Shown here: positions 3,375 to 17,468 of the stretch, one piece after another
How the letters are laid out: the number at the start of each line of letters is the position of its first letter
How positions within the stretch are numbered: position 1 is the first letter of the stretch
Virus record (IMG/VR): IMGVR_UViG_3300032223_001243
Coordinates: 1-23,915 of that record
Reading direction: 5' to 3' (one strand)
Source: a virus
DNA: 23,915 nucleotides
Made by a program: the position numbers and the translations under genes
The notes under the pieces: generated by a model
What the model saw: the letters and a program-made list of their open reading frames with translations, nothing else
What the model was told of the DNA's origin: nothing
Databases searched by the model: none

Positions 3375-4457
3375 ATGGCATATAACTTTTTCCCCAAGAC
3401 TCCTTCGGAAATCCAATCAAAACTCAATACTTGGCCGAAGAAGAAGGTCGATGAGTTGATGCATCTGCTTGCATGGTTATTGGATAAGTATCCAAGTCAT
3501 GAGACTCCTATCAATATAGATCCTACAAAACAAGGATTGATTAATGTTACTAGGCAGTTAGAAGGAGATGTAAAGTTAGATGCACTTAAAAGGTATGCTG
3601 GAATATCAGCATTCAACCTAAAGTTTGGTGAAGGTTCTTCTGGAAACCGTGGAGCAAATAACAGAGGGAATGCCTTCGAAGGTATTTTCCAAAAAGGATT
3701 AGAAGATTGGTGGGCAGGGATTCAGATTCCTGACGCTAAGATGATAGCAGCATTAGAAGATTTAAAGAAGACTTACAACCTTACTAAATACAAGAAGCTA
3801 ACTGTTAAGGCTGAAGGTGCGCTAAATAAGAAGCGTCCATTAGTTTATACGCCAGACGTTATCATCTCTGCACCAGGCGGAAAAGCCAATAACGATATCG
3901 GTGCATTGGTAACAGACTTAACTTTGATGGGCGATGGTAAGGTGGTTGCATACCTAAGCTTGAAGCTTGGTAACACAGCAACATTCTTCAACGTTGGTGT
4001 AAAAACTGTATTGACTACAGATGAAATTAAAAGCGGTAAGATTACTAACGTTAATGGTTTAAAATTATTAGGCATGTTTAACATCAAACCTCCAGTTTTC
4101 TGTGATGTGTTTAATGGTAAGCTAGCTAAAGGTTATAGCGAAGATGTTTGGCCTAACATGAGTGGTCAACAGAAGGATAACCTTAAGAAGTTATTGGCAT
4201 CAGGTGTAGGACAAGGGTATCATGTGATACACAAGCTTGCAGCAGGTATCAAGTCAATTAAGATTGATCCACATTATATGGAGCTTGCATCTACACCGAC
4301 CTCTTGCACAATATATTACGGTGGTAAAGGTGGTTTGGGTAAACGTATCGATATGGAAATTATAACTAAGAAGTATGTTTTAAAATTAAACATACGCGAC
4401 ACACAAGGACAAGGCGGGTATCCAACCCGCTTAATGGGAGATTTTACATACGTATGA
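3375..4457 (+). CDS. Late protein of unknown function, possible PD-(D/E)xK-like fold
   Basis: This 360-residue protein begins MAYNFFPKTPSEIQSKLNTW. I recognise no named family. The N-terminal third is helical. The centre has TPDVIISAPGG, then VTDLTLMGDGKVVAYLSLKLG: a PD, a later Asp and an SLK in a beta strand, reminiscent of PD-(D/E)xK nucleases with Ser in place of the usual Glu, but this is weak evidence. ATG 3375 is preferred because it coincides with the predicted late transcription start. An in-frame ATG at 3303 overlaps the previous stop but would translate through the terminator hairpin. No Shine-Dalgarno precedes either. Its stop overlaps the next start (ATGA), tying it to the internal-protein cluster. 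It lacks the N-terminal targeting-like peptide of its downstream neighbours. Confidence 0.75.
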   Translation: MAYNFFPKTPSEIQSKLNTWPKKKVDELMHLLAWLLDKYPSHETPINIDPTKQGLINVTRQLEGDVKLDALKRYAGISAFNLKFGEGSSGNRGANNRGNAFEGIFQKGLEDWWAGIQIPDAKMIAALEDLKKTYNLTKYKKLTVKAEGALNKKRPLVYTPDVIISAPGGKANNDIGALVTDLTLMGDGKVVAYLSLKLGNTATFFNVGVKTVLTTDEIKSGKITNVNGLKLLGMFNIKPPVFCDVFNGKLAKGYSEDVWPNMSGQQKDNLKKLLASGVGQGYHVIHKLAAGIKSIKIDPHYMELASTPTSCTIYYGGKGGLGKRIDMEIITKKYVLKLNIRDTQGQGGYPTRLMGDFTYV

Positions 4458-4855
4458 TTACTTTTAAAGAATACCTACAAGAAGAGCATGGAGCCGGGGA
4501 ATGGGGTACTCCTGAACTCACGAATAAATATAAGCATGACACACCTGGACAAGAGTGTGATTGTAAAGCCTGTAGTAAAAAAGAAATTAAAGAGTATGCG
4601 ATCGATGCTAAAGGGCATAAGTCATCTACTGGTGGATTAACACAGAAAGGCGTTGATGCATACAATAGAGAAAATCCTGGACATCATTTGAAAACTGCTG
4701 TAACAACTAAACCATCTAAGTTAAAACCTGGAAGTAAAGCTGCTAACCGTCGTAAATCATTTTGTGCTCGTATGAGTGGCGTCGATGGTCCTATGAAAGA
4801 TGAACACGGAAAACCAACGCGCAAAGCGCTAGCACTAAGAAAGTGGAACTGCTAA
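4454..4855 (+). CDS. DUF6321-like protein with capsid-targeting-like N-terminus
   Basis: This 133-residue protein starts MITFKEYLQE and then EHGAGEW, the first of a series in this region with a decapeptide ending in Glu like the T4 capsid-targeting sequence. A Cys pair (ECDCKACSKKE) near residues 35-45 could bind metal. The C-terminal part runs from SSTGGLTQKGVDAYN through RRKSFCARMSGVDGPMKD to ALRKWNC. I recognise it as the domain annotated DUF6321 in marine phages, where it often appears in virion-related proteins; its function is unknown. It overlaps the preceding gene as ATGA. My inference is a packaged internal head protein trimmed after residue 10. The family call is fairly sure, the role is not. 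Confidence 0.82.
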   Translation: MITFKEYLQEEHGAGEWGTPELTNKYKHDTPGQECDCKACSKKEIKEYAIDAKGHKSSTGGLTQKGVDAYNRENPGHHLKTAVTTKPSKLKPGSKAANRRKSFCARMSGVDGPMKDEHGKPTRKALALRKWNC

Positions 4856-4856
4856 A

Positions 4857-6056
4857 ATGAAATCATTTCAAACATATTTGACCGAATCTGCAGCAGCAGA
4901 AGGTACAAAGCTTAAGCATATTACTCATCCTGAAGATCGTCCATTGATGCACGGTCATGAAGGGTTTGAGCATGCACATGGAGCATTAACACATGCACAT
5001 GAACATATGAAAGCTGGTAAAAATAATGCAAATCTTACAACTAAATATGATGGTTCACCAGCAGTAGTTTTTGGTACACACCCAAAGAATAAGAAGTTCT
5101 TTGTTGCTTCTAAGTCAGCATTCAACAAAGATCCAAAGATTAATCATACTGAAGCAGATATCGACCGTAATCATGGTCATGCTCCAGGTCTTGCTACTAA
5201 ATTAAAGGCTGCATTAAAACACCTTCCTAAGGTTACACCAAAAGGCAAGGTATATCAAGGCGATATCATGCATTCTGAAGGTGATGTTAAGCATGATAAG
5301 AAATCAGGCAAAGCATCATTCACACCTAACACCATTACTTACACTGCACATGGCGATGAGGCTAAGAAGGCAGCTAAGGCAAAAGTTGGTGTTGCTGTAC
5401 ATACACAGTATCACGGTAATGATATCCATTCAATGTCTGCACACCATGAAGTTAATCATCACGAGTTTAAACAACATCCTGATGTACATCACCATGATGC
5501 TAGCTTCGATACCAGTACAGCACAGCATACACAAGCACATCAAGACGAGTTCCATAAACACATGAATGCAGCTAAGGCAATTCATGCTGAACATGGTACT
5601 AAGATGTACAACGCAATCCATCCTGCACACAGCGGTGAACATGGACATCTAGCAACATACATCAATCGTACTGTCAGAGATAACAGTACTCCAAGCGTTA
5701 AGGGTTTTAAAGAACATCTTAAGGCACACCACGATAAACAAGTTGCTGGTGTTAAGACAGAAAAATCACAGACAGCTAAACGCGAAGTTGGTAAGAAAGA
5801 ACTTGCACACGTTGAGAAGAACAAAGGTCATTACGAAAACTTGTTACATGCTCATAATCATCTAGCTGCTGCTAAGAATACTTTGGTAAAATCATTAGAA
5901 AGTGGTCATAGTAAATATGAACACCATATTGAAGGTAAGGCATCGAAGCCAGAAGGTTTCGTTATTAATCATGAACATAATGGTAAGACAGAACCATCCA
6001 AACTTGTAAATCGTGCAGAGTTTGCAAGATCAAACCTCCTTAAGGTAAGAAAATGA
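4857..6056 (+). CDS. Histidine-rich DUF6267-like protein, putative ligase-fold nucleotidyltransferase
   Basis: This 399-residue protein starts MKSFQTYLTE then SAAAEG, a capsid-targeting-like leader. It matches the marine-phage family I know as DUF6267. Motifs resemble covalent nucleotidyltransferases (DNA/RNA ligases): motif I K63-Y-D-G66, a FVASK strand at 82-86, a motif III-like VYQGDIM with Asp136, a motif IV-like EGFVI at 366-370 and a motif V-like SKLVN with Lys382. If real, Lys63 would accept AMP. Roughly one residue in eight is His (about 50), concentrated in residues 20-50 and 180-270, so metal binding or a disordered spacer between motifs III and IV is possible. The start directly follows the previous stop; the next gene overlaps by ATGA. 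Enzyme activity is inferred; gene reality is certain. Confidence 0.8.
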   Translation: MKSFQTYLTESAAAEGTKLKHITHPEDRPLMHGHEGFEHAHGALTHAHEHMKAGKNNANLTTKYDGSPAVVFGTHPKNKKFFVASKSAFNKDPKINHTEADIDRNHGHAPGLATKLKAALKHLPKVTPKGKVYQGDIMHSEGDVKHDKKSGKASFTPNTITYTAHGDEAKKAAKAKVGVAVHTQYHGNDIHSMSAHHEVNHHEFKQHPDVHHHDASFDTSTAQHTQAHQDEFHKHMNAAKAIHAEHGTKMYNAIHPAHSGEHGHLATYINRTVRDNSTPSVKGFKEHLKAHHDKQVAGVKTEKSQTAKREVGKKELAHVEKNKGHYENLLHAHNHLAAAKNTLVKSLESGHSKYEHHIEGKASKPEGFVINHEHNGKTEPSKLVNRAEFARSNLLKVRK

Positions 6057-6673
6057 AATCATTTGTAGACTTCCTAACAGAAGAAACCGATGCTAAGCAT
6101 GCTACTATTTCCTATGGTCGCATGAATCCTCCTACAACTGGTCACCTTAAAGTAGTTAAGAAGGTACAAGACGTTGCTAAGAAACACGGTGGAGAACACC
6201 ATGTTATCGTATCTCATTCGAATGACAAAGAAAAGAACCCTTTAACAGGTGAACAGAAGGTCAAGCACATGAAGCGTTATGCACCAGATGCAAATGTACG
6301 TGCTTCATCCAAAGAAAACCCTACACTGTTCTCACACGCTGCTGAGCTACACAAGAAAGGTGTAACACACCTACACGTTGTTGCTGGTTCAGATCGTGTA
6401 CCAGAATACAAGAAGAAGTTTAAAGAGTTGAACGGTAAAGCAAACAAAGATGGTAAAGTTCCATTCCACTTTAAGAAGATAACAGTACACTCAGCTGGTT
6501 CAAGGGATCCTGATGCAGAAGGCGATACAGGAATTTCTGGAACCAAGATGAGAGAGCATGCCAAAAATAAAGACTTTAAATCATTTAGAAAAGGTGTACC
6601 TAGCCATGTATCAGATGAACACGCACACGAACTAATGCATGATGTAAGAAAAGGTATGGGACATCACGATTAA
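6053..6673 (+). CDS. Cytidylyltransferase-like nucleotidyltransferase with capsid-targeting-like N-terminus
   Basis: This 206-residue protein starts MKSFVDFLTE then ETDAK, the closest match in the window to T4's targeting peptide. The rest is a Rossmann-like alpha/beta-phosphodiesterase nucleotidyltransferase: YGRMNPPTTGH has the T/HxGH catalytic motif at residues 28-31, and ISGTKMR at 161-167 is the second signature that binds triphosphate. HLHVVAGSDRV between them is the expected strand. The fold includes NMN adenylyltransferases (NadR/NadM type), glycerol-phosphate and pantetheine-phosphate enzymes; the substrate cannot be read here, though NAD-related chemistry fits the RMNPPTTGH form. 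Both motifs are intact, so it should be active. It forms a translationally coupled pair with the ligase-like gene and has a decayed relative at 7540. Confidence 0.87.
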   Translation: MKSFVDFLTEETDAKHATISYGRMNPPTTGHLKVVKKVQDVAKKHGGEHHVIVSHSNDKEKNPLTGEQKVKHMKRYAPDANVRASSKENPTLFSHAAELHKKGVTHLHVVAGSDRVPEYKKKFKELNGKANKDGKVPFHFKKITVHSAGSRDPDAEGDTGISGTKMREHAKNKDFKSFRKGVPSHVSDEHAHELMHDVRKGMGHHD

Positions 6674-6692
6674 CTAGATCAAAGACTACATC

Positions 6693-6968
6693 ATGAGCAC
6701 TAAGATGAAACCTCGAAAGAAGCCCCAGAGAACTGGGCTTTATGAGTTTGATCCAGATGTAATGGTCGATATTAAGACTGCACCTCCAAAGAAGAGAGGA
6801 GCAATCAGAAAATATTATCCAATGAAGGTAACTTATAATAGCTTGGAAAAAGAAGCTTACTTGGATATAGCAGATCAGATCATCAACTTAGATCCTGAGG
6901 CCAGTAGGATGACTATATTAACATCCGAAGGTCAACAAGAATGGGATCATGATGATGACGATATATAA
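6693..6968 (+). CDS. Hypothetical protein with acidic tail (91 aa)
   Basis: This 91-residue protein starts MSTKMKPRKKPQRTGLYEFD. The N-terminal 40 residues are basic and the end is strongly acidic (EWDHDDDDI). It has no leader like its neighbours and no domain I know. An alternative ATG at 6705 would drop four residues, and no good ribosome-binding site distinguishes them. It sits in the late cluster just before a second late promoter. Confidence 0.7.
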   Translation: MSTKMKPRKKPQRTGLYEFDPDVMVDIKTAPPKKRGAIRKYYPMKVTYNSLEKEAYLDIADQIINLDPEASRMTILTSEGQQEWDHDDDDI

Positions 6969-6973
6969 TTTAT

Positions 6974-6981
6974 TATAAATA
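6974..6981 (+). promoter_or_regulatory. T4-type late promoter
   Basis: TATAAATA, a perfect T4 late box, lies six bases after a stop codon. The predicted start is near 6987, giving an unusually long leader of about 107 bases before the next gene at 7094. Confidence 0.82.
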
Positions 6982-7014
6982 AGGGTATACCAGTTTATTG
7001 AACAAGTTAGTGCA

Positions 7015-7075
7015 AAGCTACTTAACTGGAAGTAGCTTACTAGCTTAACATATTATCAAAGGTTGGGAAACCAAC
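7015..7075 (+). other. Structured 5' leader of the 7094 gene
   Basis: Two hairpins are visible in the predicted late transcript leader: AAGCTACTT (7015-7023) with AAGTAGCTT (7030-7038), nine perfect pairs over a six-base loop, and GTTGG (7062-7066) with CCAAC (7071-7075) closed by a GAAA tetraloop. Neither is followed by a T run, so they are not terminators. They may stabilise the mRNA or regulate translation; no tRNA fold is apparent. Confidence 0.6.
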
Positions 7076-7093
7076 TGCGGTTAATGGGAAAAA

Positions 7094-7537
7094 ATGTTAA
7101 AGTTTAAAGAATATTCAGAGCAGTTTGATGAGCTTGCGGAATCCGTTGAATTAACGGAGGAAGAGCAGTCTGAACTCAATGAAGTGTTGAATACTTCTGC
7201 TAGACTTAAACGTAGGAATCAATTTATCAATCGCAGGGCTCGCTTAAAGATGCAGCGTAAAGTACAACGCATGCGCTTAGCTGATACGCCTCGCATTAAG
7301 AACAGATCGGTAAGAAGAGCCAAGGGCCTTATCATCAAACGTATCTATCAAGGTCGTTCACGTTCACAAATCCCATTAACACAAAGAAGTCAAGTCGACA
7401 AGAAGCTACAGCAGCTACGTCCAGCTGTGCAGCGCTTGTCGTTAAAGCTACAACGTCGTGTAAGACAAGAAGATCAGATGCGCCGTACACATGGAAAACT
7501 GAAGAAGTTTAATTTTGCTGGTCAAGTGAGTTATTGA
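7094..7537 (+). CDS. Highly basic internal-head-protein-like protein
   Basis: This 147-residue protein starts MLKFKEYSEQFDELAE, a variant of the targeting-like leader in which an (L/x)AE site falls at residue 16; a second acidic stretch ends at LNEVLN. The rest is very rich in Arg, Lys and Gln (for example RLKRRNQFINRRARLKMQRK), lacks hydrophobic membrane segments and is largely helical by appearance. I recall similar basic proteins in cyanophages as hypothetical or structural. DNA binding inside the head, like T4 internal proteins, is a reasonable inference: an acidic leader to reach the prohead, then a basic body to bind packaged DNA. It is the first gene after the late promoter at 6974. 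Confidence 0.8.
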   Translation: MLKFKEYSEQFDELAESVELTEEEQSELNEVLNTSARLKRRNQFINRRARLKMQRKVQRMRLADTPRIKNRSVRRAKGLIIKRIYQGRSRSQIPLTQRSQVDKKLQQLRPAVQRLSLKLQRRVRQEDQMRRTHGKLKKFNFAGQVSY

Positions 7538-7539
7538 TA

Positions 7540-8481
7540 ATGAAACAGTTTAAAGAGTTCTTGAGAGAGTCGAGTGGGCAGGTTACGGTTACATTTGGTA
7601 TGTTCAATCCGCCAAGTTCAGAGGATGAGAAGCTGATTAATAAGGTGCATGAAGTTGCACAAGGTGGTCCTTATAGGATCTACTCAGCACAAGAATGTAA
7701 TGAGAATTGTCCACTAGATTATAGCACGAAGATTAAGTTCATGCGCAAGACGTTTCCACGTCATGCAAGAAGTATCATCAGTGATGCTAAGATCGTAGAT
7801 CTATATGATGCATTAGATTCTTTGTATGAACAAGGTTATAGCAAAGTTAACTTGGTTATGCCCAATGTGCCTAAGCAGTTGACAGAATCAGTAGACAGAT
7901 ATAATGGTAATAAGAGAGGTAAGAAGTTATACAACTTTGAATCGATTAATATTATCTCTGTAGATTGTAAGAATGATGTAGAGTTAAAGATGGTTGAGGC
8001 TGTTAAGAATAATAGCTTTGAAGTCTTTAGCAAGAATTTACCAAGTACATTGAAGGAAGCACACAAGTTATACAACGCGCTTCGTTCAGCACTAGGTTTA
8101 AAAGAAACATTTAACTTTAGACAACATATCCAGCTTCCTACATTATCCAAAGAACGTGAAGCATATGTAAGCGGAGAGCTGTTTAAAATTGGTGATGTAG
8201 TTGAGGTGCGAGAGTCTAAAGAGATCGGACAGATCCAAAGACTAGGATCAAACTATGTAATCATTGAAACATATGAAGGCAACAAACAACGTAAATGGTT
8301 GAAAGACGTTGTTAAGGTCGAAGAAGCAGTCATCAATCAAATGCTTGAAAAAATGGGAGCTCCTTGTTGGTCTGGTTATACGATGGATAGTACAAAAGAA
8401 AGATCAGACAAAACGTCTATAAATAAGAAAAGTAAAATCAAGTCTTTCAAAGAAGACTTATCAACATTTAATGGGAAATAA
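7540..8481 (+). CDS. Degenerate nucleotidyltransferase paralogue with C-terminal KOW-like domain
   Basis: This 313-residue protein starts MKQFKEFLRE then SSGQV, the same type of decapeptide leader. Residues 15-200 align by eye with the cytidylyltransferase-like protein at 6053: FGMFNPPSSED corresponds to YGRMNPPTTGH, but the catalytic Gly-His is Glu28-Asp29, and the ISGTKMR signature has no equivalent (VELKMVEAV at that place). It is therefore probably catalytically dead. Residues 214-260 (FKIGDVVEVRESKEIGQI... to WLKDVVKVEE) resemble a KOW/SH3-like barrel, also found in the proteins at 11443 and 13792. The ATG at 7540 is used rather than a TTG six bases earlier because it places the leader in register. 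A late promoter for the next gene lies inside its 3' end. Confidence 0.8.
   Translation: MKQFKEFLRESSGQVTVTFGMFNPPSSEDEKLINKVHEVAQGGPYRIYSAQECNENCPLDYSTKIKFMRKTFPRHARSIISDAKIVDLYDALDSLYEQGYSKVNLVMPNVPKQLTESVDRYNGNKRGKKLYNFESINIISVDCKNDVELKMVEAVKNNSFEVFSKNLPSTLKEAHKLYNALRSALGLKETFNFRQHIQLPTLSKEREAYVSGELFKIGDVVEVRESKEIGQIQRLGSNYVIIETYEGNKQRKWLKDVVKVEEAVINQMLEKMGAPCWSGYTMDSTKERSDKTSINKKSKIKSFKEDLSTFNGK
8418..8425 (+). promoter_or_regulatory. T4-type late promoter inside the 3' end of the preceding gene
   Basis: A third perfect TATAAATA lies 59 bases before the ATG at 8484, with the predicted start near 8431 and a leader of about 53 bases. The context GTCTATAAATAAG resembles TTATAAATAAG at 6974. 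It would drive the small beta protein and the large modular proteins independently of upstream genes. Confidence 0.72.
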
Positions 8482-8748: not shown

Positions 8749-11094
8749 ATGTCTAAGACCTTAAAAGAGCTATTAGAAGCTCGCTTCGTTTCTTCAGGTG
8801 CATTTAGGATCTCTGCATCCGGCCGTAAGATTCGTCGTCGTATCAAGATTGGTGATGACGATTACAATAAAGAAGATGATCTTGACAAAGATGGTGATGT
8901 TGACAAACAAGATGCTAAGCTTGCGAAGAAAGTTAGATGGGAATCATTCTCTGAATTTGCAGAAGGTACTTCAAGCGCTAAGACCACTGTGAATAAAGCT
9001 AGCTATTCTTGGGGTAAGATGGTTACCGTACATCACGGAAAAGATACATCGTATCCTCTACATCCAGAACATCAAGAAGCTATCAAGAAATTGAAGGATG
9101 GCGAGAAGACTTCTTTTAAGGATGAAACAAATAGTACAGTACATGCCCACCGCGAAGGCGATAGCGTGCATCTGACAAGGCCAAAGACATCTTCAACGAA
9201 GACTACTGTTGCTCATAGCCATTTCAATGAAGAAACAATCAATGAGTATTCAATGGAAGATTTGCATAAAGATGCAGCTGCATCCTTAAAGAAATCCATT
9301 GATAAACAATCAGATGATCGCATTGCAGCATTAAAGAATCCTCCAAAGAAAAAGAGTTTCTTACAAAGAGTTGGTGAGAAGCAGATCAATATGGTTAAAG
9401 GTGCTTATCACGGTTTAACCAAAGAAGATACTGACAAAGACGAGTACATGAAAGAAGAAACACTAGAAGAAAAGATCAGTGTTGTTTCAGGTAATGCACC
9501 AAGAAAACAAGGAAGGTTTGCTTCTAACAATCAATCTACGACAGACAAGACACCAATCGGCCGAGTTGCTTCTGGTACTGTATATACTGGTAATAAAAAG
9601 CCAGCAGATACATCAGTGCATGATAAAGCAAAAGCACGTCTAGCAAAGATGAATGAAGAAATCGCAGGTGAATCATATGAAGCTGCAGAAGGCCATTTGT
9701 TGAAGGCAAAAGAATCAAAGGAAAATTCTAGAGAATACCATTTCCATATGGCTAATCATCACGAAGCTATGGGTCATTGGCATGCATCTAAAGGCCGTAG
9801 TATTGCTTCTGATAGAGAATTTAATAAAGCAGAAGGTCATCATGAACTCGGCATCAATATGAAAGAAGAAACAATTAAAGAAGATGCTGATAAGGGTGAG
9901 TATGACTATGAAGGTCAGATGGCTAGAACTCAACTACAAACTATTGTACGTAATGCAACAGATTTGGTTGACATGCTTGAAGATGATGAAAACATGCCTG
10001 AATGGGTTCAATCAAAGATTACTTTGGCACAAGACTATATTACTTGTGTAAGAGATTACCTACAATCTAAAGAAGAACTAGGCGAACAAGCCAACCTTGA
10101 AGAAGGTGTGTTTACAGATGATGAAGGCATTGCTAAAAAACTAGTTGCTAAGTATGGTAAGAACGTTCAATCTCATGATATTAAATTAGCATTACATTTA
10201 CATCCAGAGGGACATAAAACTACAGTAGATCGTGTAGCTGGTCATGTAAAAAAAATGCTATCTGTTAAAGAAGAAACTGAATTAGAAGAGAAGCGTGGAT
10301 TATGGGATAATATCCATGCTAAGCAAGAAAGAATCAAGAATGGTTCTGGAGAAAAGATGAGAAAACCTGGAAGTAAAGGAGCTCCAACAGCTGCTGACTT
10401 CAGGGCTTCACAAAGTGTTAAAGAAGAATCAATTGTTGAACATGAAGAGCATGGTCCAGATCATGTTGAGATTGCATTAGACCATCGTTTCCCACCTAAG
10501 AATCAGAAGACTGCAATGGCATCTCTTAAGGCACATGGTGCAGAGTATGTTGCTACTAGCGATAAGGCTACACACTTCAAAGTTCACAAAGATAAAGCAC
10601 GTAGCTTAGCGAAAGAATTAAAATCTAATGGTGTTGAGAGTGATATCAATGAAGGTTTAAAGCATCATATTGCAGCTGCAGCAATCGCGGTAGCAGGCGC
10701 ATTAGGTGGACATGCACATGCACAAAGCAACGATACACAAAAGACCGTTGAAAAACCTGCAGCTACAGCATCTGCAGATTCAGATAAGTCACCACACGAT
10801 GGCGGTTCTAAAGCAGATCATCAAACACGTATCGATAAAGCCGTTGCTGATGGCACGATGTCACGCGGTGAGGCTAATGTAGAAAAGATGAAACACGGTT
10901 TACGTCCTTCATTTGGTCGTGCTAGTAGGGTAACTCAAGAATCTACTGAACAAGATCCACCGTTTGATAAGCCATATAAGACAGTTCCACCAGTAACTAA
11001 AGATAAATCTGGTGCAGAACATACTGGCATGTCAAGAGCTCGTCATATCGCTCGCTTAGCTATGAAGCAAGCTGCGAAGAAGGCTAAGGCGTGA
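8749..11094 (+). CDS. Large modular protein with repeated prohead-protease-like sites (putative internal-head polyprotein)
   Basis: This 781-residue protein begins MSKTLKELLE then ARFVS, a targeting-like leader. Residues 44-55 (DLDKDGDVDKQD) form a canonical EF-hand/dockerin-type loop. Seven (L/I)xE sites follow at E166, E241, E378, E452, E514, E564 and E635, five of them inside a recurrent EET or EES context, dividing the chain into modules: a beta module around 85-160; a helical one; a His-rich helical module around 308-371; a conserved phage helical module starting at 379 (ARTQLQTIVRNATDLVDML); a short module; a cytosine-free-looking HG-rich module 565-635; and a final one that starts with a signal-peptide-like helix (636-658, ending AHA). 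The C-terminus SRARHIARLAMKQAAKK is basic. It may be cut into internal head peptides by the gp21-type protease; a prohead core role is the main alternative. Confidence 0.8.
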   Translation: MSKTLKELLEARFVSSGAFRISASGRKIRRRIKIGDDDYNKEDDLDKDGDVDKQDAKLAKKVRWESFSEFAEGTSSAKTTVNKASYSWGKMVTVHHGKDTSYPLHPEHQEAIKKLKDGEKTSFKDETNSTVHAHREGDSVHLTRPKTSSTKTTVAHSHFNEETINEYSMEDLHKDAAASLKKSIDKQSDDRIAALKNPPKKKSFLQRVGEKQINMVKGAYHGLTKEDTDKDEYMKEETLEEKISVVSGNAPRKQGRFASNNQSTTDKTPIGRVASGTVYTGNKKPADTSVHDKAKARLAKMNEEIAGESYEAAEGHLLKAKESKENSREYHFHMANHHEAMGHWHASKGRSIASDREFNKAEGHHELGINMKEETIKEDADKGEYDYEGQMARTQLQTIVRNATDLVDMLEDDENMPEWVQSKITLAQDYITCVRDYLQSKEELGEQANLEEGVFTDDEGIAKKLVAKYGKNVQSHDIKLALHLHPEGHKTTVDRVAGHVKKMLSVKEETELEEKRGLWDNIHAKQERIKNGSGEKMRKPGSKGAPTAADFRASQSVKEESIVEHEEHGPDHVEIALDHRFPPKNQKTAMASLKAHGAEYVATSDKATHFKVHKDKARSLAKELKSNGVESDINEGLKHHIAAAAIAVAGALGGHAHAQSNDTQKTVEKPAATASADSDKSPHDGGSKADHQTRIDKAVADGTMSRGEANVEKMKHGLRPSFGRASRVTQESTEQDPPFDKPYKTVPPVTKDKSGAEHTGMSRARHIARLAMKQAAKKAKA

Positions 11095-11442: not shown

Positions 11443-12762
11443 ATGACTTGGGGTATTTTCAAACACGACGCTATATCTGAGGCGTATACAAAGATGAAAT
11501 CAGAAGAGCTAAAGGGAAACCAGAAGAAGCTCGATAAGAACAAAAATGGTAAGCTTGATAAGCAAGATTTTGCTATACTACATAATGAAGATTATGATGA
11601 TGAGACAGCAGTTGATAAGTCTAAAGTTCCAGCATACCTTCGCAAGAATGATAAGCTAACTCTTAAAGATTTGGATAAAGAACGTACGAAGAATCGTAGC
11701 CATCCAGAAACTCTATTAAAGATTAATGGTACTCAACAGAAAGAAGAAACAGAAGCTACTGAAGAACTTCTTGAGTACGAATCAAAAGATGGTGTTTACA
11801 AACATCAAGCTAAAGCTGGTCGTTACGGCGGCACAGAGAAAGAAAGCGACTATGTGAAGGGTCCATCTGATGCTGCGCTGAAGAAGATCGAAGCTGAAAA
11901 GAAAAAGAAAGTTAATGAAGCTAAAGAAGGTGATACTGTAACTATTCATAAGCCAGGTCATCCATTACATGGTTTAAAGGGATATGTTTATCATAGCGGT
12001 AAGGAACATGCTACCGTAGAATTGCATGACAAACCTAAAGATTATGAATGGCAATCTGCTAAAAATGTTCAAGTAAAACACAATGAACTTAAGATACATG
12101 AATCAGTAAAAAAAGAAGGTTTAGAAATCTTCTCTGAGAAAGAGATAGATACTCTTATCAATGAAGTATTGTCAAAGAATGCATCTGCTGGTGAATGGAT
12201 CAGTGACTTCGTTAAGTCAGATAATCCTAAATTTGCTGGCAAATCAAAGGAGCAACGTAAGAAGCAAGCATTAGCTGCTTATTACGCAGCACAAAGGAAT
12301 GAATCTACTGACTATGATTCATTTTTAGATGAAGCAGTACAGAAGGGCATCGTTAGTATGGATGCCAAAGAAATTAAACATGCAAACATGAAGGATAAGC
12401 AAGATGATCAAGAAGTTATGGAACCTCATTCTGGGACAGAGCAAAAATTCCTCGACGCCCACTCAGTCATCGTCACAGACGAGCCAAACAAAGACGGAAC
12501 CCCAAACGGAGCCGACAAAGTTAAGCGAGCAGCCGAGCCAAAAGGAAAAGGTCCAGGCAGCTACGACGCCAAAGAAAAGCTCGGCAAGCAAGGCATCGTC
12601 AAAGAAGACTCCGTCAAAATCGGCACCACAGCCACGGGCGAAGAAGGCGAAACCATCATCACCAACCCGCAAGACAAGAAAACCTTCCGCGACTTAAAGG
12701 GTACGACTAAAGCTGCACGTAGCTTGACTAATAATAAAGCTGCAGCTGGAGAAGCTCAGTAA
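11443..12762 (+). CDS. Modular late protein with EF-hand-like loop and KOW-like module
   Basis: This 439-residue, very hydrophilic protein is preceded by AAGGA at 11431-11435. An ISE site at residues 11-13 could be a divergent leader. Residues 31-42 (DKNKNGKLDKQD) make a second EF-hand-type loop. Further hydrophobic-x-Glu sites at E111, E159, E220, E241 and E297 separate modules: 160-220 is KOW-like (EGDTVTIHKPGHPLHGLKGY), and 242-297 contains AGEWISDFVKSDNPKFAGKS, a segment I recall from several marine-phage structural or core proteins. The coding sequence from about 12451 to 12690 switches abruptly to C-ended, GC-richer codons, suggesting recombination. Probably another internal head or prohead-core protein. 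Confidence 0.77.
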   Translation: MTWGIFKHDAISEAYTKMKSEELKGNQKKLDKNKNGKLDKQDFAILHNEDYDDETAVDKSKVPAYLRKNDKLTLKDLDKERTKNRSHPETLLKINGTQQKEETEATEELLEYESKDGVYKHQAKAGRYGGTEKESDYVKGPSDAALKKIEAEKKKKVNEAKEGDTVTIHKPGHPLHGLKGYVYHSGKEHATVELHDKPKDYEWQSAKNVQVKHNELKIHESVKKEGLEIFSEKEIDTLINEVLSKNASAGEWISDFVKSDNPKFAGKSKEQRKKQALAAYYAAQRNESTDYDSFLDEAVQKGIVSMDAKEIKHANMKDKQDDQEVMEPHSGTEQKFLDAHSVIVTDEPNKDGTPNGADKVKRAAEPKGKGPGSYDAKEKLGKQGIVKEDSVKIGTTATGEEGETIITNPQDKKTFRDLKGTTKAARSLTNNKAAAGEAQ

Positions 12763-13791: not shown

Positions 13792-15642
13792 ATGCCAATA
13801 GATCCATCCATCCAACGTAAAGCAGATGCTATGAATGATGAGATTAAAAATCTCAATCAACAGCATAAAGATGCCATCGCTGCAGCTCAAGATCAACTCA
13901 AGAATAAAGTAGACATGCTTAAAGGCAAGAAGCAACAGATGCTTGATGCTGAGAAGAAGCGTGAAGATGCTACACATGCAACTTCAGCTAATGAAGAAGT
14001 TGATACTCGTGAAGACTTAACTCAACTAGTTGCTGAAGCTACTGGTCAAGGCGGATTTGATTACGAGAAGACTGTTAATGATAAGCTTAAGAAGCATGGT
14101 AAAGCAGACAAAGGTTCTAAGACAGCAGGTTCTTCAGCTGATGCACCAGATGCAAAGTTCAAGCATGATGGTAAAGAACACAACTTAGAGATTAAAGCAG
14201 ACCACAAAGCAATGTTTGGGCAGATCGAACTTCATCATGATGGTAAGAAGTGGGACATCTCTGACAACTCTAAGAAGAAGTATCCTCATACAGCAAAAGC
14301 AATCACTGATACTGGATTCCTCCATAAAGTTAATAAACAATGGAAGAAACCATCAGGCGATTATCACAAAGATCTGCAGATGGGTAATGTGTATCACACA
14401 CATGATGACGCAGAACCAATCAAACACCACTACGGTAAAGATCGCAAGACAAACTATATCCAAATTGGTGGACATGGTTTCTATCATACCGGAAAAGACG
14501 AAGCAAAACTTGGTAGTCCAGAATTACATGGCAAGACACAGCTTCGTGCACGCATGAAGAATCGTGGCACTGATAAGAAGACTGGTAAGACTAAGTATGG
14601 TGCACTAGTTGTGATGGGTTTAAAGGATGCAGATAAGTCTCATCATGACTTAGATGCTAAAGTTAAAAAAGAATCACACGAAGAATTGATTGGAGATATG
14701 TTGAACGAGTCTGATGCATCTTGGGCAGCATCTCTAGAAAAGAAGAAAGAAAATCGTTTAACTCCTAACGATAAAGACAAGCTAGATAAAGTACGTGCTA
14801 TGCTTGCTAAAGAAAAGAAACCAGTTAAAGAATCTGCACTAGATAGATTCAGAGCAGCAGCTGCTGAACGTATGAAGAAGCACGATGAGATTGAAGCTAA
14901 ACGCAAGGAAGAAGCTGAGAAAGGCAAAGAGAATATGTCTTCAGCAATCGATCGCCTAGCTAAGAAAGTAAACGAAGCACATAAGATCGGTGATAAGGTT
15001 GTAATCCATAAAGGTCCTAAGGATGTTGTTGGTAAAGTTGGTCACGTAGGAGAGATTCGTAAACGTTATGCTGGTGATACAAAGACATACACCATCGACC
15101 ACGACGAAGGTTCAATCCAATTAAAGCCTACACATTTTAAATCGGTCAAAGAAGATTTAGATGAAGCCCGCATGTCTGCTGCTGTTAAGTTACAGCGTGC
15201 ATTCGAACGCGAACGTATGAAGTCAGATGCATCTAAACGTCGAGGTGAGGAACTGTTAAATCCACCTAAGAAGCCTGAACCGGTTAAAGAAGCGTGGTAT
15301 ACTCAAGAGCTGATGGAAGATGCAGAATGCTTTACACATGGATACGAAGCTGCTCATACTGGTGCGGTTAAGAAAAACCCTTATGAGAAGGGGACAAAAG
15401 ATTATACAGAGTATGAGGATGGTTATGCTCAAGGTGAATTAGCTCGTCGTCGTATGCAGACAGAAGAAGCTATCTCAGAAGAAGGCGAAGGAGCAGTACC
15501 AGCTAATAATGCTGGTGATGGCAAGATTGCTGGATTTGCCGGTGATGCGGGTAAGAAAGCTGTGATGACTAAGAAACCTTTACAACGCAAGACGTTACAA
15601 GACTTTAAAAAGTATGTATCTCAAGAACACGAAGAGAATTAA
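13792..15642 (+). CDS. Modular late protein with PD-(D/E)xK nuclease-like and KOW-like modules
   Basis: This 616-residue protein opens with a coiled coil (about 5-60). Sites of the form hydrophobic-x-Glu at E82, E306, E347, E395, E458, E500, E509 and E563 delimit modules. Residues 83-306 resemble a PD-(D/E)xK nuclease: GFDYEKTVNDKLKK helix, P119-D120, L132-E133-I-K135, then FGQ142-144 and IEL. All three catalytic positions are present, so metal-dependent DNA cleavage is plausible. Residues 396-458 form a KOW-like module (KIGDKVVIHKGPKDVVGKVG). The C-terminus RKTLQDFKKYVSQE resembles the targeting peptides seen at N-termini elsewhere in this region. As with the other two large proteins, I infer a proteolytically processed internal or core protein carrying an enzyme. 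Confidence 0.78.
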   Translation: MPIDPSIQRKADAMNDEIKNLNQQHKDAIAAAQDQLKNKVDMLKGKKQQMLDAEKKREDATHATSANEEVDTREDLTQLVAEATGQGGFDYEKTVNDKLKKHGKADKGSKTAGSSADAPDAKFKHDGKEHNLEIKADHKAMFGQIELHHDGKKWDISDNSKKKYPHTAKAITDTGFLHKVNKQWKKPSGDYHKDLQMGNVYHTHDDAEPIKHHYGKDRKTNYIQIGGHGFYHTGKDEAKLGSPELHGKTQLRARMKNRGTDKKTGKTKYGALVVMGLKDADKSHHDLDAKVKKESHEELIGDMLNESDASWAASLEKKKENRLTPNDKDKLDKVRAMLAKEKKPVKESALDRFRAAAAERMKKHDEIEAKRKEEAEKGKENMSSAIDRLAKKVNEAHKIGDKVVIHKGPKDVVGKVGHVGEIRKRYAGDTKTYTIDHDEGSIQLKPTHFKSVKEDLDEARMSAAVKLQRAFERERMKSDASKRRGEELLNPPKKPEPVKEAWYTQELMEDAECFTHGYEAAHTGAVKKNPYEKGTKDYTEYEDGYAQGELARRRMQTEEAISEEGEGAVPANNAGDGKIAGFAGDAGKKAVMTKKPLQRKTLQDFKKYVSQEHEEN

Positions 15643-16834: not shown

Positions 16835-17293
16835 ATGTGGTTACTTACATCATTTTTACCTGACTGGTTTGTCACTTACTTCGTACATTTAATATTTGTA
16901 CTAGGTCTTGTAGCCACATTTGCAAGTAGCATTATGCAAAGACTACCATTTATAAGTAACTATGGAAATTTAATTAAGCCTATCGGCATGATTATATTAG
17001 CCCTTGGTTTATTCCTTGAAGGAAGTTGGTGGAATCAACGAGGTTGGAATGAGAAGATAGCAGATCTCGAACAAAAGATTGTAGTAGCAGAAACAAAGTC
17101 TAAAGAAACAAACATACAGATACAAAAAGAGGTAATAGAAAAGATAAAGATAGTTAAGGAAAAAGTATATGAAAACAATCAAGCGATTGAAGCAAAGCGT
17201 TCTGCTATCAATGCTGAGTGTAAGTTGTCTGATGATGCTTGGGTGCTCTACAACCGTGCCACTCAAAATGGCGTGGCCTCAGGTTCCAAGTGA
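16835..17293 (+). CDS. Inner-membrane spanin (Rz-like)
   Basis: This 152-residue protein has hydrophobic segments at about 8-33 and 47-63, then a periplasm-type coiled coil (NEKIADLEQKIVVAETKSKE...) and a Cys-containing end (INAECKLSDDAWVLYNRAT) like many Rz-type i-spanins. I-spanins span the periplasm with an outer-membrane lipoprotein and fuse the two membranes in the last lysis step. AAGGA at 16824-16828 is the ribosome-binding site. The out-of-frame overlap with a lipoprotein gene inside its 3' part is the key support. Two hydrophobic segments rather than one is somewhat unusual, so holin-like activity is an alternative. Confidence 0.78.
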   Translation: MWLLTSFLPDWFVTYFVHLIFVLGLVATFASSIMQRLPFISNYGNLIKPIGMIILALGLFLEGSWWNQRGWNEKIADLEQKIVVAETKSKETNIQIQKEVIEKIKIVKEKVYENNQAIEAKRSAINAECKLSDDAWVLYNRATQNGVASGSK

Positions 17294-17468
17294 ACTACAA
17301 GAAAAGCCAGCAGATCTAAAGCAACTACCTGAAGATAAGAAGACATTAGCAGATCTCATTGAGAATGCTAATGAAAACTATGGTACGTACTACCAACTGA
17401 AGACTAAGTTGGAAGCATGGCAAGAGTGGTATAAATCTCAGAAAGACATATACGAAAGTGTGAAATGA
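17169..17468 (+). CDS. Outer-membrane spanin lipoprotein (Rz1-like), overlapping the i-spanin gene
   Basis: This 99-residue lipoprotein is read in a different frame; its first 125 bases lie within the i-spanin gene. It has a basic N-terminus, a hydrophobic stretch and a lipobox-like MLGC with Cys near residue 26, predicting signal peptidase II cleavage and lipidation. The mature part is Pro-rich at first (WPQVPSELQEKPADLKQLPE) and then helical. AAGGA at 17156-17160, eight bases before the ATG, shows a dedicated ribosome-binding site. The layout matches the overlapping Rz/Rz1 class of spanins and implies a Gram-negative host. Confidence 0.83.
   Translation: MKTIKRLKQSVLLSMLSVSCLMMLGCSTTVPLKMAWPQVPSELQEKPADLKQLPEDKKTLADLIENANENYGTYYQLKTKLEAWQEWYKSQKDIYESVK

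Follow-up and report, generated by a model that had tools for sequence, protein, structure and literature searches.

Prohead-protease-like sites and exchangeable modules in a probable head-internal polyprotein of a T4-like phage

The 23,915-nucleotide stretch of DNA analysed here, from a virus of aquatic bacteria (positions 1 to 23,915 of IMG/VR virus record IMGVR_UViG_3300032223_001243; hereafter the window) encodes P0001, a protein of 781 amino acids (8749–11094, plus strand) whose open reading frame (ORF) is genuine, with an ATG start and a GGAG a few bases 5′ of it. P0001 sits in a block composed mostly of genes annotated without a function, between the helicase and nrdA genes, and the window contains T4-like genes which we take to be the end of a gp41-like helicase gene, thyX, ribonucleotide reductase genes, glutaredoxin and others. 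In T4, a ten-residue tag sends a protein into the phage head, where a protease frees the protein. An earlier note on this DNA proposed that P0001 is either a polyprotein cut during head maturation or a rapidly recombining scaffold. P0001 is probably a core polyprotein inside the head of a T4-like phage, of the type governed by a capsid-targeting sequence (CTS) and the prohead protease gp21, with exchangeable modules; the recombination and polyprotein readings are compatible and do not compete.

All seven (L/I)xE sites that had been named (E166, E241, E378, E452, E514, E564 and E635) are present, and the list is incomplete, as E7, E10 and E446 match the motif too. E10 is the most important of the unlisted matches, because it marks where cutting of a T4-type N-terminal propeptide would be expected (MSKTLKELLE/A; a slash marks the proposed cut). 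The repeated EET/EES context of the sites is borne out by a composite motif, EE(T/S) followed within 0–2 residues by (L/I)xE, which occurs five times in P0001 against a mean of 0.024 in shuffled sequences, with none of 5000 shuffles reaching five; one linker peptide of P0001 is KEETELEEKRGLW. Composition varies between the sites, as had been claimed, with fragments of 50–146 amino acids and isoelectric points from 4.1 to 9.9. Pfam finds no family in P0001 at E ≤ 1, a PHROGs search recognises only residues 507–572, and no recognised peptidase is present in the protein.

The N-terminal ten residues of P0001 (8749..8778, plus strand, as for all coordinates written with two dots below) are a CTS-like propeptide, MSKTLKELLE, with a predicted cut after E10 and before Ala, at the position of the T4 CTS processing site. 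As in a T4-type propeptide, the N-terminus ends with (L/I)xE at about ten residues, and varied forms head the orthologues (MAKTLRQLLEA, MAKTLKQFLEA, MKSLTEILGEA and, at locus L103, MKSFKEIAEA). According to the accessible part of a study of the ten-residue CTS of T4 IPIII, targeting depends mainly on residues 4 and 7, and processing on residues 8 and 10, with Asp at position 10 preventing processing (PMC9026906). Residues 4 and 7 of P0001 are T and E, with no aromatics, while L5 and L8 lie one place on.

When viral contigs were scanned with P0001, 68 loci were obtained. The protein was split at the proposed sites into ten segments, and eight of these have relatives in the loci. Module m0 (residues 11–72; 8779..8964; relatives in two ORFs) is conserved in four syntenic orthologues and ends with the CTS-like SFSEFAE/G, whose E72 is outside the earlier list. 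Module m1 (residues 73–166; 8965..9246; two ORFs, and 30 loci in a scan of its own) is a beta-rich domain with site E166, followed by the helical m2 (residues 167–241; 9247..9471; three ORFs) with site E241, whose relatives at L002/L003 (L087/L088), L014 and L089 are each preceded by a KEE-type or EINEL/QIDEL site. A low-confidence stretch and m4 (residues 242–378, m4 being about 303–376; 9472..9882) end at E378; the stretch itself (m3, residues 242–302) has no relatives in the 68 loci, while m4 has relatives in four ORFs (L005, L013 and L002 among the loci) and five distinct ones in a later tblastn of the loci. Module m5 (residues 379–452; 9883..10104), a helical domain with sites E446 and E452, is found in 67 ORFs, and stands alone or heads a gene behind a CTS-like N-terminus at L065, L041, L043, L051 and L063. 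No relative of m6 (residues 453–514; 10105..10290; site E514) occurs among the loci, and m7 (residues 515–564; 10291..10440; site E564; PHROG 16028) is a basic module of 50 amino acids, RGLWDNIHAKQERIKNGSGEKMRKPGSKGAPTAADF, found in 13 ORFs. Module m8 (residues 565–635; 10441..10653) is an alpha/beta domain with site E635 and one relative, in the orthologue at L098, and m9 (residues 636–781; 10654..11091; three ORFs) comprises a hydrophobic signal-like helix and a basic C-terminal tail. A scan of viral contigs for m8–m9 confirmed no relatives, and a later tblastn on the collected loci yielded a single m8 relative and five of m9, the latter covering about residues 713–780 at L088, L097, L105 and L112 and residues 692–727 at L068. 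Directly after E635 (10654–10740, about residues 636–664) lies GLKHHIAAAAIAVAGALGGHAHA-Q, which resembles a Sec signal peptide and has an AxA-type end; cutting at E635 would place this peptide at a new N-terminus. The scan for m8–m9 confirmed no relative of this stretch either.

The AlphaFold2 model of the whole chain (67 rows; mean predicted local distance difference test score (pLDDT) 66; predicted template modelling score 0.36) consists of folded islands with low-confidence stretches in between. Of the seven sites, E166, E241, E452 and E564 fall in parts of the chain with pLDDT below 50; E378, E514 and E635 fall outside such parts, E514 within a predicted helix. Modelled alone, m1 is beta-rich (pLDDT 83), and the block of m8 reaches about 89–97. 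A fold search with the whole model gave no match at E ≤ 0.001, and one with the m1 model gave no PDB match at that threshold and only two phage-protein matches in BFVD, while a sequence search of solved structures gave nothing credible for m1 or m7.

The suggestion that the segments are independent domains is supported by their behaviour in relatives, as modules swap between proteins and phages, in differing order and company, some occurring as separate genes. L065 encodes m5 alone in 75 amino acids, L001 carries m7, m5 and DUF6321 within 263 amino acids, and L005 encodes a chain of 1185 amino acids in which a cytidylyltransferase-like domain comes first and m4, m7 and m5 are also present; the modular chain at L014 likewise opens with a cytidylyltransferase-like domain. 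Syntenic orthologues of P0001 occur at four loci (557, 364, 357 and 340 amino acids), adjoined by a coiled-coil gene and, in three, preceded by a gene of 84–86 amino acids. All four retain the first module and three retain m1, and the remaining modules are gained or lost, which bears out the rapid recombination that had been suspected. One module of the L103 orthologue, YEAKDGVYRHQARPGRYGG, is found instead in the neighbouring modular protein of the window (11443–12762). Coding sequence (CDS) 29 of S-SCSM1 and a protein of DSL-LC02 share 37% identity over 595 columns, and m5 is, by eye, inserted in the latter between two modules adjacent in the former. Many relatives are 50–90% identical across phages.

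The junctions of these relatives carry the motif in most cases, as would be expected of sites between domains. Of 172 distinct module starts, 140 (81%) have an (L/I/V/M)xE ending within eight residues upstream, against 17% of random places in the same proteins, in a test with 12 module anchors, offsets set by eye after examples, N-terminal and internal starts pooled, and ten m7 contexts left out by a one-sided rule that dropped only motif-less contexts. The same test gave 46% against 16% for the reversed motif and 11% against 10% for (L/I/V/M)xD. As the reversed motif is enriched too, part of the junction signal is a Glu-rich linker. The Glu-rich linker at the junctions is thus certain at the level of sequence, while the exact motif is favoured, with the size of its preference depending on the test. 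Block boundaries drawn automatically over all ORFs gave a weak signal, diluted by spurious frames and by Glu-rich linkers. Two features that were not selection criteria speak for the motif. Ala occupies P1′ in 42 of 116 internal sites and is the usual P1′ residue of T4 sites; before m1, hydrophobic-x-Glu-Ala stands at a fixed place in most of 11 contexts. Loss of sites in close homologues, named in the earlier note as evidence that would count against cutting, was looked for in the orthologues, whose junctions mostly keep the motif, with exceptions such as HFNE/SVNKSD at L098, which has Phe at P3.

The KEE(T/S) linker might instead be retained as a short DNA homology for module recombination, with protein cleavage irrelevant. 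The modules do shuffle, and the KEE(T/S) codons of four linkers have an identity of 0.917, where the codon usage of the gene predicts 0.813 (P = 0.02). However, only 12 bases are concerned, it is the protein pattern and not one DNA word that is conserved across phages, and the residues differ at many junctions (DLNEKR, QIDEKR, SLKEAR), so that this explanation, which is compatible with cleavage and does not exclude it, is considered very improbable as the whole account.

Module m7 provides a natural control for the position of the sites. In podoviruses (P-GSP1, S-RIP1, HTVC109P, P-SCSP1u and others) it is a stand-alone gene of about 50 amino acids, starting with MAK(R/K)GLY, which in some annotated records adjoins head genes (scaffold and capsid in HTVC109P, capsid and tail tube in P-SCSP1u). 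In contigs of T4-like phages, the residues before GLW are FLEE/KR, FIDE/GKR, YIKE/GKR, DLNE/KR, QIDE/KR or SLKE/AR, and in P0001 ELEE/KR, the site of these fusions occupying the place of the podoviral start codon. A cut after the Glu of the motif would give nearly the podoviral N-terminus. Thirty-three m7 contexts start within nine residues, and the motif is found within ten residues upstream in 26 of the 43 distinct contexts away from the start. Most of the other contexts are stand-alone genes that start with MAK(R/K/P)GLY. The 17 motif-less ones comprise seven that were kept (L157, L161, L172, L174, L176, L181 and L046) and the ten set aside, which have a Met within eight residues (L128 and L167 among them). 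By hand reading, only L046 of the 17 belongs to a T4-like phage, six (L128, L157, L167, L172, L176 and L181) belong to phages that are not T4-like, and the rest look stand-alone. Neither PF03420 nor PF07068 was found in the six records, and the neighbours scanned in five of them have matches in other families of head or virion proteins or have phrog_12985 in common. The module occurs in hundreds of viral contigs (at least 575 confirmed stretches) of podoviruses, other phages and T4-like phages (e.g. L079, L081, L082 and L084). One of them, Limnohabitans phage DC33 (PQ492659.1; L084), is filed under Inoviridae, a taxonomy that looks wrong, as its 39 kb far exceeds the usual length of an inovirus.

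Four other genes of the window, in the block 4454–8481, begin with the strict CTS pattern M..(F/Y)..(F/Y)(L/I).E. These are MITFKEYLQE/E heading a DUF6321 module (4454..4855; Pfam PF19846), MKSFQTYLTE/S heading DUF6267 (4857..6056; PF19782), MKSFVDFLTE/E heading a cytidylyltransferase-like protein with homologues in virions (6053..6673; PF01467), and, from the second Met (codon at 7540), MKQFKEFLRE/S heading a second cytidylyltransferase-like protein (7534..8481). The C-terminal extension of the last matches phrog_4808, labelled ribonucleotide reductase alpha subunit, which is probably a mislabel of a small domain. No papers on DUF6267 or DUF6321 were found in the collection searched. Among the T4-type loci, the strict CTS heads 58 of 924 distinct genes, against 0.1 expected by shuffling. 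An aromatic residue is found at CTS position 4 in 24 of 30 N-terminal against 8 of 115 internal sites, and at position 7 in 18 of 30 against 4 of 116. As the aromatics are mostly lacking at internal sites, the internal linkers resemble a CTS that has kept its processing half without its targeting half. A whole CTS-like stretch is retained at some internal junctions (SMKTFKELIEM in L014, MMSFKSFLEIN in L007, KKTYKTFIEQ in L001, GLKSFKTLVKEG in L005 and ITYREFIAEGN in S-SZBM1_194), as would be expected of recent fusions.

Downstream of P0001, the second modular protein (439 amino acids; 11443..12762) has modules in common with the P0001 orthologues, and a third (616 amino acids; 13792..15642) has junctions of the KEDLDE/A and KKVNE/A type. 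Two ORFs overlapping in different frames encode a membrane-anchored coiled protein (16835–17293) and a small lipoprotein-like protein (17169–17468), which by eye we take to resemble an Rz/Rz1 spanin pair.

Relatives of these proteins, both modular and CTS-headed, have been detected in purified virions of three Synechococcus phages (S-CREM2, S-SZBM1 and S-SCSM1), as far as the accessible parts of the papers and records go. The S-CREM2 virion contains the cytidylyltransferase ORF154 together with ORF160, ORF137 and ORF136 (PMC10665884, Table 3), of which ORF154 begins with MKNFSSFLTE/A, ORF136 begins with MQTFSMFFSE/D, ORF137 has a DUF6321-like end, and ORF160 (297 amino acids) has the junctions ENLEE/KK and EETEISE/GK. 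Proteins 139 and 140 were detected in the S-SZBM1 virion (PMC9146016), the former modular and the latter starting with MRFRQFIIE/A, and a cytidylyltransferase in that of S-SM1 (PMC3037559). In S-SCSM1, CDS 29, 89, 90, 91, 92 and 93 are virion proteins (PMC9602691 and record labels); CDS 91 starts with MKSFLQFLKE/A, CDS 92 has a predicted site at EEVELDE, and CDS 89–93 form a contiguous block at the same place as that of P0001. The strict CTS heads one of the 46 virion-labelled ORFs of S-SCSM1 and none of the 218 others. What ties P0001 to these proteins is the sharing of modules or the position of the gene rather than homology from end to end. Possible carry-over in caesium chloride preparations is conceded by the authors of the S-CREM2 and S-SCSM1 studies (PMC10665884, PMC9602691), and the accessible text of the cyanophage proteome papers contains no report of processing of these proteins. 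Indirect support for a head location of P0001 comes from the CTS-like N-termini in its gene cluster and from these virion proteomes.

P0001 could also be an intracellular, non-virion protein involved in host take-over or linked to replication, with its CTS resemblance due to chance. The genome position, among replication genes between the helicase and nrdA, and the caution of the cyanophage authors on carry-over speak for this explanation, which is nevertheless hardly credible in view of the 58 CTS-headed genes where 0.1 were expected and of the virion labels on S-SCSM1 CDS 89–93 at the same place.

The polyprotein reading envisages that the N-terminus of P0001 would take the protein into the prohead core beside its CTS-headed siblings, where an activated gp21-type prohead protease would cut behind the (L/I)xE motifs of the N-terminus and of the Glu-rich linkers, to yield about 7–10 products of 50–146 amino acids. 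These would stay with the DNA or leave, part of them being ejected into the host. The modules would be the units of gain, loss and exchange, with the protease site moving along with the module at most junctions, so that a module behind a CTS gives a similar product as its own gene or within a chain. Cleavage, ejection and the function of the products are inferred by us from these comparisons. A Peptidase_S77/gp21 is encoded in all six relative records of at least 140 kb that were searched (G007, G014, G019, G020, G021 and G049), and gp23 in all four of these that were tested; in one searched set, gp21 occurs in 5 of 50 records, all five T4-like. In S-SCSM1, gp21 is CDS 40.

Several results weigh against this reading. 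The bare (L/I)xE motif occurs 10 times in P0001 against a mean of 6.35 in 5000 shuffles (P = 0.086), and (L/I/V)xE 13 times against 10.0 (P = 0.18); the bare count, being at chance level, was rejected as evidence. Motifs of the (L/I)xE type lie inside folded modules as well (MIEDDENMPEW in m5 relatives). With boundaries from BLAST only, in 81 modular proteins, the enrichment at junctions is 1.6–2.4 fold, and 1.5–2.0 fold for the reversed motif. Site-less junctions occur before m7 at L046 and in the DUF6267–cytidylyltransferase fusions at L124 and L127, the clearest exception, which join, with neither a CTS nor a junction site, what the window has as individual CTS-headed genes. No gp21 was seen in the window, a fragment of 23.9 kb, and no cleavage products of P0001 or its relatives were found in the data that could be reached. 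The modular S-SZBM1_194 (707 amino acids) is missing from the 30 proteins of that virion in the accessible part of the report, and the composite motif was rejected as a mark of virion proteins in S-SCSM1, as its density is 0.68 per 1000 amino acids both in the 46 virion-labelled and in the 218 other ORFs.

P0001 could instead be a multidomain head protein that stays whole, similar to the polyvalent proteins, with the Glu-rich linkers as flexible spacers and the motif matches incidental. The reversed motif is enriched at junctions as well, the bare motif is at chance and the composite is no virion mark in S-SCSM1; polyvalent proteins are known, and at least one of them, the N4 virion RNA polymerase, is packaged without being processed, according to the accessible part of the source (PMC5512222). 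Nevertheless, a whole chain is rather unlikely, as a hydrophobic residue at P3, a P1 Glu and frequently a P1′ Ala recur at a set place before unrelated modules, and that place is taken by the CTS in modules that head a gene and by the start codon in podoviruses.

P0001 might alternatively be a core or scaffold component similar to gp22 or gp67, cut small and mostly expelled, of which volume and charge alone matter. The T4 core is degraded by gp21, and the gp22 scaffold protein of S-SCSM1 (CDS 41; MK867354.2, 53437–54579) has ten composite EE..(L/I/V/M)xE motifs, the highest number among 264 proteins. However, such a role is improbable, as several modules are predicted to be folded (m1 and the m8 block), relatives often retain the high identity across phages given above, and the chains at L005 and L014 contain enzyme domains as well, all of which points to cargo more than to filler. 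The scaffold alternative of the earlier note has nothing behind it except the common motif. P0001 has no gp22 match in Pfam or PHROGs. At L011, the modular gene lies downstream of gp21–gp22–gp23, with a separate gp22-like gene (by position) after gp21.

A wider interpretation, put forward tentatively as possible, is that T4-like phages of aquatic bacteria have an exchangeable cargo system, a pool of small modules and enzymes encoded as CTS-headed genes or as polyproteins with gp21 sites between the modules, which would be cut in the prohead and delivered early into the host. If so, fusion to a cargo gene with a linker of six to eight residues would suffice to add a delivered product, and such easy fusion would explain both the shuffling and the recurrent detection of NMNAT-like enzymes in the virions of cyanophages. 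In lakes and seas, T4-like phages would then possess a modular delivery chain giving many products per tag, a sequence rule could predict injected proteins in unculturable phages, and the question raised by cyanophage proteomics, whether the NMNAT-like virion enzymes are packaged or carried over, would have a testable answer.

A literature search without most subscription journals found no description of a polyprotein processed module by module by the prohead protease in T4-like phages. The comparisons with published systems below follow the accessible parts of the sources. The proteins phiKZ gp93 and SPN3US gp53, gp54 and gp81 of giant phages similarly contain several protease motifs each and are cut C-terminal to Glu (PMC5694885, PMC10052503), whereas their repeated sites clear an N-terminal propeptide and those of P0001 separate conserved modules along the whole chain, and they have AxE or SxE as their motif where P0001 has (L/I)xE. 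Polyvalent proteins (PMC5512222) contain 2–15 unlike domains per chain, comparable to the several modules of P0001, and are thought to be injected, with DdrB and DarA of phage P1 being processed; unlike P0001, which has no Pfam domain and would depend on gp21, they contain known domains, many of them enzymes, and sometimes an internal metallopeptidase. The virion NMNAT/cytidylyltransferases of S-SM1, S-CREM2, S-SZBM1 and S-SCSM1 come from a comparable gene block, and three have CTS-like N-termini (MKNFSSFLTEA, MRFRQFIIEA and MKSFLQFLKEA); unlike P0001 they are enzymes, and a targeting sequence is not mentioned in the accessible text of the papers. The T4 internal proteins (IPI, IPII, IPIII and Alt) have a short N-terminal CTS cut after Glu 10 and give small divergent products packed with the DNA, and the siblings of P0001 in the window share the aromatic residues 4 and 7, Leu 8 and Glu 10. 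P0001 would work like these proteins and is a candidate member of their class, with atypical targeting residues that lack both aromatics. In T4 every internal protein has a gene and a CTS of its own, while P0001 joins many modules in one chain, with internal sites that would serve processing only.

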